A stretch of DNA of 43,684 bases from Candidatus Uhrbacteria bacterium CG_4_9_14_3_um_filter_50_9 (GTDB lineage: Bacteria > Patescibacteriota > Patescibacteriia > UBA9934 > GWF2-40-263), in the NCBI GenBank assembly GCA_002791295.1, contig PFWU01000012.1, positions 1 to 43,684 on the forward strand, given 5' to 3'. The position numbers and the translations under genes were made by a program. Numbering within the stretch: position 1 is the first letter of the stretch; each line of letters opens with the position of its first letter. This document shows positions 9,787-12,875 of the stretch, piece after piece. The notes beneath the pieces were generated by a model. It was not told where the DNA came from. It did not search any database and was given only the letters and a program-made list of their open reading frames with translations.

Positions 9787-10191
9787 ATGAGTGAATCAGG
9801 AACAACTTACATCGAAGCAATTGGACGCCGAAAGCGTGCTGCGGCGCGCGTGCGTCTGTACCAAGGTGGAAGCGGAAGCATTAAGGTAAATGATAGAAAT
9901 CTCGCTGAATACCTGCCAGTTGCCATTTTACAAGAGGCTGTAAAAAGTCCTCTCGTCCTCACTGGGACTGATGGAATGTTCGACATCACCGTCCATGTTA
10001 AGGGTGGAGGGATCCATGGACAAGCAGATGCGATCCGAATGGGGATCGCACGTTCACTCGTAGATTTTAACCCAGAGTTTAGGGCTGTGTTGCGTAAAGG
10101 CGGTTTCCTTTCTCGTGACGCACGTCGTCGTGAGCGAAAGAAGCCAGGTCTCAAGAGCGCACGTCGCGCTGCTCAGTTCTCAAAACGTTAG
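9787..10191 (+). CDS. rpsI: 30S ribosomal protein S9
   Basis: [38 protein letters not shown]-terminal [17 protein letters not shown]. Confidence 0.96.
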
Positions 10192-10200
10192 AAATCAAAG

Positions 10201-10225
10201 ACCAGGGCCTCAGGGCCCTGGTTTG
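10201..10225 (+). terminator. Terminator after rpsI
   Basis: Perfect 9 bp stem ACCAGGGCC-TCAG-GGCCCTGGT followed by a short T run. Confidence 0.75.
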
Positions 10226-10251
10226 ACATTTAGGGTTCGGAATGCTTAAAT
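10223..10251 (+). promoter_or_regulatory. Putative promoter of the GC-rich cassette: TTGACA-17 bp-TTAAAT
   Basis: Exact consensus -35, 17 bp spacer, 4/6 -10, starting at the end of the rpsI terminator. Confidence 0.6.
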
Positions 10252-10299
10252 CTGCAACCAGGAGTAGATTTCCTACATCACTGGCAGGAGGGAAGAGGA

Positions 10300-11379
10300 A
10301 TGCCCAGACCACCCAATTCACAGAGGCAGATGCCTCGCCGGGCCGAGCTTTCGCTCAGTCCACACCTGACCAAGACGACGGGTCGCAGGGAGGTCAAACC
10401 CGACCTCGATTTCGCCAAGGGTCACGGCATCGGTGTGGTTCAGCTCGAGCCCGGAACACAGGCGATTCCGGCCACAATCGGCATGCGGTCGCTCCTCAAG
10501 CACATCGAGGTGTCAGTCCCCACTGCACTCACCATCGACCACTGGACGACGACCCTAAGCCCCATGTCGCCAAACCTGCAGAGACGGCTCTTGGCAGCGC
10601 GGAATGCGACCCAAATGGGCGACATCGATCCTCTGGACATGCCGGCGCTTCCAGGCTTCCTCTCGGCGTCCTACGACGCCATCAGGGAGTTGCGCCTTGG
10701 GCATCAGCCCTTCTCTGATCTCAACCCGCCTCGTGAGGGGGCTGTGATCGAGGTGACCTACGCACTGGTGCCCAAGGACGATGGAACCCTGGGCCCTGTG
10801 ATCGGCTTCAAGGCCTCGACGGTGACGGCCCTCGAACATCTGCAGCGCATCGCGCTGAGGCGTCAAGCACAGAACGATCGGATCTTCGCTGCGGCCTGCT
10901 GGCCGTTCAAGGGTCCCAAGTTCTGGGTCAGCGAGGATGCCTCCGGGAACGAAACCGGTCGAATCCAGCTCTGGCCAGCCGGCCGTGAACGCACAGTCAT
11001 GGCGATTCCCGAGCTTCCTGCGGATCCCTGGGCCATGGACGGCGAGCAATATGCCGACGTTGGTCTCGCCTGTGCCAGAATGGAGCGGGTCTTCAACTCT
11101 CTCTGGCGGGCGGTCTACGCCATGGACGAACGTGTCAGTCGTCAGCTCGAAGAGCAGGGTTACGACTTCTCCCGTGTCGAGGGCACCTGCCTGGGTGCCG
11201 GGCCGCTTCACGAGATGATGAGTCCGCGTCTCCAGGCCGGCAACCTCACTCAGCTCGGCGAGTTCGCTGACTGGTTTGAGGAGGAGGCTCTTCCAGAAAT
11301 CGGGGCAGAACATCTCGATCGCCTCGCTACGAACCACGGCTTCGCCACCCACTACGACTTTGAGATCATCGACGACTAG
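10300..11379 (+). CDS. Uncharacterised soluble 359 aa protein encoded by a GC-rich cassette
   Basis: Long ORF with an AGGAGG Shine-Dalgarno about 8 nt before ATG, flanked by its own promoter and terminator; no family recognised by eye. Confidence 0.85.
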   Translation: MPRPPNSQRQMPRRAELSLSPHLTKTTGRREVKPDLDFAKGHGIGVVQLEPGTQAIPATIGMRSLLKHIEVSVPTALTIDHWTTTLSPMSPNLQRRLLAARNATQMGDIDPLDMPALPGFLSASYDAIRELRLGHQPFSDLNPPREGAVIEVTYALVPKDDGTLGPVIGFKASTVTALEHLQRIALRRQAQNDRIFAAACWPFKGPKFWVSEDASGNETGRIQLWPAGRERTVMAIPELPADPWAMDGEQYADVGLACARMERVFNSLWRAVYAMDERVSRQLEEQGYDFSRVEGTCLGAGPLHEMMSPRLQAGNLTQLGEFADWFEEEALPEIGAEHLDRLATNHGFATHYDFEIIDD

Positions 11380-11382
11380 CTG

Positions 11383-11407
11383 AACGGCAGACATACACTG
11401 CCGTTTT
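11383..11407 (+). terminator. Terminator of the GC-rich cassette
   Basis: AACGGCAG-acataca-CTGCCGTT (8 bp stem, 7 nt loop) followed by TT. Confidence 0.75.
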
Positions 11408-11441: not shown

Positions 11442-12875
11442 GTGAGCACACTATTGGCGAAAAATACCCTTTACCTAACCCTTGCGGCTGTGGGACAAAA
11501 GATGATTGCTTTTGTCTACTTTTTATTCTTGGCCCGCATCATGGAGCCAGAGGCCACGGGGGCCTATTTTCTTGCGGTATCGATTGCGACCATGTTTTCT
11601 GTCATCGCAGATTTTGGAATCACTCCAGTGATCATTCGTGAGATTGCCAAACGTCCTGACTCAGCTGTTCATCAGCTTCGCATTGCTCTTGGAACGAAAC
11701 TGCCATTCATCCTCCTGGCCGTGATTGGAACCCTCGGAGCAGGATATGTGCTTCAATACGATGCGAGGATCATTCTGTTAATCAGCTTGGCTTCACTGGT
11801 GCTGCTTCTAGATTCAGTCCACTTGCTATACTACGGGGCGCTTCGTGGAGCACAAAAACTTAAGTATGAATCCGTAGGTATTTTCTTGGGCCAGCTTGTC
11901 TCAGCTGTGAGTGGTGGATTGGTGCTGTGGTTTCATCCTTCACTGTCGCTCCTCATTTTTGCACTCGTTGCTGGTTCACTCACAAATGTCCTCGTATCCG
12001 TCACAAAATCTGTACGCGTTTACGGATCTCGCATTCTTAAACCGCTTTGGAATTGGCACGAGACGAAGCATCTTTTGCAGGTGGCACTCCCGTTTGCCCT
12101 TGCAGCCATCTTTGTCAAAGTCTATTCGTACGTTGATAGCATCTTCATTTCAAAAATGATCGATACCACTGCCGTCGGTATTTATAGCATTGCCTATAAG
12201 TTCACCTACGCCTTCCAGTTTTTGCCACTTGCCTTCATTGCGGCCTTCTATCCAGGGCTGAGTGCTCTTGTAGGTAAGGACCCAAAGAAACTTGAGCAAA
12301 CGTTCATGAAAGGCATGTGGTACATGATGCTGCTTGCCGTACCCATCACGTTCGGTATCTGGCTCATCGCTCCTGAGATGGTCCTCCTTGCCGGGAATGG
12401 ATATGAGGCATCTGCTCCAGTATTGCAAGCGCTTGTATTTGTACTCATTCCAATCTTCCTAGATTTTCCCGTTGGCTCTCTGCTTAATGCTTCCGATCGA
12501 CAAGCAACAAAGACAGGAATCATGGGCGTGACTATGGTTATTAATGTTGTCCTGAATGCGCTCCTTATCCCTCACTTCCAGGTTTTAGGTGCGGCCTATG
12601 CGGGTCTTGCAAGCTTTGCTTTTATGTATCTAGCGGGTCTTTATTTTGTTCCACAGTTGATTCAAGGATTTTCTTATACAAAGATGGCAAAACGTCTGCT
12701 GCCCATTTTGGGTTCAGGTTTGCTAATGCTTGTTGTTGGTTGGTCTATAAAGCCGCTGACAAGCTGGATCATCCTCATACCAGTCACAGCCGTGGTCTAT
12801 ATCACTGGACTGTATCTGACAGGTTCTGTGACAAAACGTGATCTTCAAGATGCTCGTAATCTGCTCCGCAACTAA
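11442..12875 (+). CDS. Polysaccharide flippase (Wzx/MATE-like, MOP superfamily)
   Basis: Polytopic protein beginning LLAKNTLYLTLAAVGQKMIAFVYFLFLARIMEPEATGAYFLAVSIATMFSVIADFGITPVIIREIAK; GTG start. Confidence 0.88.
   Translation: MSTLLAKNTLYLTLAAVGQKMIAFVYFLFLARIMEPEATGAYFLAVSIATMFSVIADFGITPVIIREIAKRPDSAVHQLRIALGTKLPFILLAVIGTLGAGYVLQYDARIILLISLASLVLLLDSVHLLYYGALRGAQKLKYESVGIFLGQLVSAVSGGLVLWFHPSLSLLIFALVAGSLTNVLVSVTKSVRVYGSRILKPLWNWHETKHLLQVALPFALAAIFVKVYSYVDSIFISKMIDTTAVGIYSIAYKFTYAFQFLPLAFIAAFYPGLSALVGKDPKKLEQTFMKGMWYMMLLAVPITFGIWLIAPEMVLLAGNGYEASAPVLQALVFVLIPIFLDFPVGSLLNASDRQATKTGIMGVTMVINVVLNALLIPHFQVLGAAYAGLASFAFMYLAGLYFVPQLIQGFSYTKMAKRLLPILGSGLLMLVVGWSIKPLTSWIILIPVTAVVYITGLYLTGSVTKRDLQDARNLLRN

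Follow-up and report, generated by a model that had tools for sequence, protein, structure and literature searches.

The stretch of DNA that we analysed (the window: 43,684 nucleotides of a Candidatus Uhrbacteria contig, 47% GC) carries a gene for a soluble protein of 359 amino acids at 10300-11379, on the + strand like the other features given here for this locus. To its left lies rpsI (ORF 9787-10191), which encodes ribosomal protein S9, and to its right a polysaccharide flippase gene of the Wzx/MurJ superfamily (11442-12875; Pfam Polysacc_synt, 1.7e-32), followed by glycosyltransferase genes and an O-antigen-ligase-like gene. We coined the name RJP, for rpsI-junction protein, for the family of which the window gene encodes the founding member. 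The preliminary description of this DNA had singled out the ORF for its GC richness, and this is borne out: its GC content is 0.624 (GC3 0.741), against 0.475 for the rest of the locus.

The gene is framed by its own expression signals. A probable terminator hairpin follows rpsI (10199-10224; 11-bp stem, -21 kcal/mol, z -3.9) and a terminator-like hairpin follows the window gene (11382-11406; 9-bp stem, about -13 kcal/mol, z -4.2). Both fold far better than shuffled sequence; the second was missing from the list of the scan tool. The promoter (10223-10251) consists of a -35 box TTGACA (10223-10228), a 17-nt spacer and a -10 box TTAAAT (10246-10251), with a TG at 10243-10244, one base ahead of the -10. 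The T tail of the hairpin after rpsI is short, being overlapped by the -35 box. A Shine-Dalgarno sequence, AGGAGG, can be read at 10286-10291, 8 nt upstream of the ATG. All of these elements are present as first described.

A strict sigma-70 scan made no call at this promoter because the second base of the -10 box is T. We consider the promoter credible because it is conserved in relatives: of the 17 junctions occupied by the gene or by a remote relative, 12 show TTGACW-N17-TTMAMT, as against 0 of 18 comparison junctions with neither (15 of these are empty and 3 contain an unrelated gene of 590 aa). Strict matches in 538 kb of the same genome number one, at the window gene, against 0.4 in shuffled sequence. 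Among the conserved promoters the spacer is exactly 17 nt and the TG one base ahead of the -10 is usual. Most homologous junctions have a hairpin and, after it, TTGACW, the -35 box mostly emerging from the T tail of the rpsI hairpin, and sites of the (A)AGGAGG type lie upstream of most homologues. The whole arrangement is conserved, and in the explanation that we favour the window gene would be transcribed alone from this promoter.

The RJP family at the rpsI-flippase junction

The window protein gave no match at E<=0.01 in Pfam, NCBIfam, PHROGs, PADLOC or PDB sequences, and 14 family members searched against Pfam gave a best E of 0.036, in one member. The view that the protein belongs to no recognised family, possibly to a new one, agrees with these searches; the label "orphan" does not hold, since homologues stand at the same junction in 14 of 40 genomes. 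Whole-genome searches placed homologues within the same GTDB-type family, including one Candidatus Uhrbacteria genome. Those at the junction share 23-37% identity, and across the RJP family identity to the window protein falls as low as 16%. The members nevertheless align over a common core with W82, P88, R96, D242 and W244 and over T296 and T317 in the tail. Our alignment holds 20 sequences, and a 21st member occurs in G007. Weak matches in G004 and G022 were rejected as RJP, being DnaB helicase.

Two further groups are more remote. A relative that stands as a tandem second gene (group A2; L009, L024, L033 and L010) matched RJP with an hhalign probability of 95% (E 2e-8) in a single comparison. 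The A3 group (L011 and L016, from genomes G001 and G048) gave a probability of 84% (E 8e-6), and its homology to RJP likewise rests on this one profile comparison. Among about 380 genomes of the class, RJP was found in its own GTDB-type family and in G033; about 380 phylum genomes yielded no RJP elsewhere. We conclude that the window gene belongs to a new and fast-evolving family of Uhrbacteria-type Patescibacteria, one that is lineage-restricted.

rpsI, present in 40 of 43 family genomes, served as the anchor for fetching the junction from those 40, our own included. The flippase lies to the right in all 40. A homologue of the window gene fills the junction in 14, and remote relatives occupy it in three more: G016, whose A2-group gene is the one found elsewhere in tandem, and the two A3 genomes. 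Of these, G001 is the only other genome found of the same genus; its remote relative occupies the matching position and shares the promoter. Of the remaining junctions, 15 are empty, at 51-152 bp, and 8 have other content. Loss and replacement of the gene at the junction do occur. Since the same arrangement recurs in independent genomes, an assembly chimera is excluded.

Other genes also appear at this site. In G056-G058 (L037-L039, about 1000-2820 in rpsI orientation) the junction is filled by a different family of about 590 aa; in these genomes the RJP homologue adjoins a kinase gene. The G002 junction (L043) holds what by eye is a HicB/HicA-like toxin-antitoxin pair, with ORFs of 140 and 84 aa. 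In G006 an extra coiled-coil-like ORF of 459 aa (L023:5939-7318; 984-2363 in rpsI orientation) lies between rpsI and the RJP gene, on the strand opposite rpsI; the close relative G042 is without it.

Might the gene's place after rpsI mean that its product is associated with the ribosome or with translation? The left flank is constant, with the genes for ribosomal proteins L17, L13 (rplM) and S9 (rpsI). However, the gene has its own promoter beyond a terminator, it is absent in many close relatives that carry the same ribosomal genes, and its distant members lie away from ribosomal genes. We regard this explanation as very improbable.

Inheritance and base composition

The 14 junction homologues have a mean identity of 33%, whereas rpsI reaches 66% and the flippase 57%. 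Pair by pair, divergence among the homologues follows that of four flanking genes (Spearman/Mantel rho 0.50-0.72, p<=0.001), with rho 0.67-0.72 (p<=0.001) against ribosomal-protein and glycosyltransferase genes. The last result speaks against the horizontal acquisition proposed in the preliminary description. The proposal of a mobile cassette fares no better, given a fixed junction in 14 genomes, the vertical signal and the lack of a recognisable integrase ORF adjoining the gene. Residence with mostly vertical inheritance belongs to the explanation that we favour, and we give that explanation as a whole somewhat better than an even chance.

A hotspot reading, in which a defence gene, toxin or similar cassette occupies a permissive site after rpsI, can point to the variability of the junction (15 empty, 8 with other content, including the HicBA-like pair and the 590-aa family) and to the gene's deviant composition. 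Yet site and promoter are the same across genera, with vertical divergence, and no flanking repeats were seen by eye. There is no PADLOC or PHROGs match and no phage, plasmid or viral relative; searches of phages, plasmids and viral contigs returned only matches with E>1 or unconfirmed ones. The GC content of the homologues, moreover, tracks that of the host with a slope of 0.93. This reading is largely refuted, and we consider it improbable.

How unusual, then, is the composition? In a 538-kb sample, half of the genome, genes average GC 0.494 (sd 0.052) and GC3 0.505 (sd 0.096). The window gene ranks 13th by GC among 405 ORFs of >=150 aa, and some of the ORFs ranked above it resemble spurious antisense frames. 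The window gene is not the sole case: the kinase operon described below, in this genome, matches it in GC (0.62-0.63). It is a strong GC outlier, though not unique in the genome. A minority of this genome's accessory genes, including orphan lipoproteins, are GC-rich (L155, L158, L159, L165 and others), with GC3 of 0.7-0.9 in a genome sample of 49% GC.

All 14 junction homologues exceed their neighbouring genes in GC (mean +0.096, Wilcoxon p 1e-4). GC3 is raised by 0.14; hence, amino-acid choice alone does not explain the high GC. As GC is raised in every homologue and tracks host GC, it is a property of the family, and the description "composition-constrained" was apt. In relatives, then, the gene occupies this locus too and its composition is shifted in the same way, the outcome that the preliminary description had named as telling against its own interpretation. 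Its observation is confirmed and its interpretation is partly supported.

A recent transfer from a high-GC donor would fit the GC3 of 0.74 against a genome mean of 0.505. It is contradicted by the consistent elevation over the respective hosts, in proportion to host GC (14 of 14, Wilcoxon p 1e-4), by the sister genome G001, in which a remote relative with this promoter occupies the junction, and by the lack of relatives outside the order; we find it scarcely credible. We conclude that high GC is a maintained property of this gene class and not the remnant of a single recent transfer.

Association with a Hanks-type kinase

A profile search of the class found distant RJP members outside the junction. 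In six genomes such a member adjoins a gene for a Hanks-type kinase, head to head in G017 and G055-G058 and tail to tail in G033. These genomes span one other genus and one other family, the latter represented by G033. In the linked kinase, a PF00069 kinase domain (1.7e-43) is combined with a membrane helix and a C-terminal domain that bears a pair of cysteines (alignment A5). This outer domain is small and beta-rich, ends in C...C and looks PEGA-like by eye; it has no Pfam match.

The genome of the window carries the kinase (L066:5343-7418) together with a secreted-protein gene at G000:C12 (L066:4523-7418; GC 0.63 and 0.62), on a different contig from the window gene and not adjacent to it. 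The secreted protein (L066:4523-5503) has a signal-peptide-like start, hydrophobic C-terminal stretches and no Pfam match, and almost every genome with the kinase has the gene for this protein next to it. A conserved promoter, TTGACN-N14-TG[CA]TAAAAA, belongs to the kinase operon (L107:19388, + strand, in this genome; also at L070, L071, L072, L074, L075, L076 and L088); immediately after it comes a conserved box close to GCCGTCGTTCTTT. Promoters of the class TTGAC-N15-TG.TWAAA number four in half of the genome; the window gene and the kinase operon account for two. The idea of an alternative sigma regulon was dropped, four sites being too few for such a claim.

Across the order, 22 genomes have both an RJP-type gene and the kinase, 2 have the gene only, 4 the kinase only and 45 neither (Fisher p 1.4e-12). 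The gene occurs without a detected kinase of the linked type in G043 and G007, and the kinase without a detected gene in G004, G052, G049 and G038; these absences may be real or may be due to incomplete assemblies. With correction for the tree of 40 genomes, independent pairs stand at 6:0 (p 0.03), and with strict RJP members only the median p is 0.06. Kinases of other types showed no co-occurrence with the RJP gene (Fisher p 1). The kinase shares the range of RJP among about 380 class genomes, namely the same GTDB-type family and G033, with weak evidence in G038. The lycopene cyclase-VanW locus holds an RJP homologue in G007 and the kinase in G038. In 13 genomes the window-gene homologue and the kinase are almost equal in GC (r 0.98), compared with r 0.88 between the homologue and its flanking genes. 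RJP thus shows the genomic linkage and co-occurrence with one kinase type that a substrate should have, and at the genomic level the link is well supported.

Presence of a PP2C phosphatase also correlates (5.6:0.3), less cleanly than the kinase; hence, part of the signal may be a general gain and loss of accessory genes. Such joint gain and loss is central to another explanation, that RJP is a factor of polysaccharide or envelope assembly working with the flippase and glycosyltransferases, its tie to the kinase being indirect. The flippase-glycosyltransferase operon is always the right flank of the junction, the PP2C correlation points the same way, and the genome is rich in GC-rich accessory lipoprotein and orphan genes. 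However, six genomes have the homologue next to the kinase rather than near the flippase, and G007 has it at a third locus. Nor are other kinases correlated, and a promoter and terminator of its own set the gene apart from the flippase operon. We judge this explanation unlikely, though it carries real weight.

RJP as a candidate kinase substrate

The AlphaFold2 model of the RJP core (pLDDT 86.7, pTM 0.79) has three alpha-beta-beta repeats followed by helices, the helical module bearing DPW...SLW. A Foldseek search with the core gave a best PDB E of 0.03 and a TM of at most 0.23 among listed matches; the full-length model, searched against PDB and BFVD, likewise found no fold match. The top matches, MHC-I and CD1 platforms, were set aside as a generic sheet-plus-helix likeness. 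Disorder is predicted from residue 294, with a pLDDT below 50 over 294-335, and the C-terminal tail (residues 295-359; 11182-11376) is poorly conserved. Only two tail residues are conserved in alignment A4, Thr296 (20 of 20; codon 11185-11187) and Thr317 (19 of 20; codon 11248-11250). They are candidate phosphorylation sites; alternatively, they could form a docking motif.

We favour the interpretation, again with a little more than even confidence, that RJP is a cytoplasmic partner or substrate of the linked kinase, in a resident and vertically inherited family. It starts from computed features: the family and its locus, promoter and composition, the adjacency and co-occurrence with the kinase, and the conserved threonine pair. 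The folded cytoplasmic core with its flexible tail would act downstream of the transmembrane Hanks-type Ser/Thr kinase, whose outer domains would sense an envelope signal. The kinase would phosphorylate RJP at Thr296 and/or Thr317, and phosphorylation would switch its binding partner. Polysaccharide export could be the target, as the flippase and glycosyltransferase operon is usually the gene's direct neighbour. More tentatively, at less than an even chance, RJP may have a new fold and act as the phospho-switch dedicated to an envelope-sensing kinase system specific to this lineage; RJP, the kinase and the secreted partner would then be evolving fast together.

The nearest working analogue is CwlM of Mycobacterium tuberculosis, a substrate of the Hanks-type kinase PknB (PMC6180346). 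PknB phosphorylates CwlM at its C-terminal T382 and T386, and CwlM switches between FhaA and MurJ: the phosphorylated form binds the FHA protein FhaA and the non-phosphorylated form binds the flippase MurJ (PMC6180346). Like CwlM, RJP is soluble, has no membrane helix and carries two threonines in its C-terminal tail, which in RJP are candidate sites. PknB is transmembrane with an extracellular sensor, and the RJP-linked kinase combines a membrane helix with an outer domain. CwlM binds MurJ, and in the window a Wzx/MurJ-superfamily flippase is the next gene after RJP. The two differ in that RJP has no sequence or Pfam similarity to CwlM and no CwlM-type domain (it has no Pfam match at all). 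The phospho-form of CwlM is bound by FhaA, whereas our test for an FHA-mediated reader found FHA-domain proteins to be rare in the RJP-bearing family.

The linked kinase resembles PknB/PASTA-type kinases in its PF00069 domain, membrane helix and outer C-terminal domain, but that domain is small and ends in C...C, and the neighbouring gene encodes a secreted protein unmatched in Pfam. The kinase also scores with PADLOC PD-T4-6 and other kinase models through its kinase domain, whereas PADLOC gave nothing for the window protein, the tandem relative or the secreted partner. Because these models match many Hanks kinases, the kinase hit is no evidence of defence. Our literature search found no paper on the RJP family or the linked kinase type in Patescibacteria.

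In Patescibacteria genomes, then, a gene with sharply raised GC can be long established, its shift kept in proportion to the host, which cautions against reading a GC deviation as recent transfer. Most lineage-specific proteins of these bacteria are unnamed, and their signalling is little known. The RJP family now gains a testable role, two candidate phosphosites and one named kinase.
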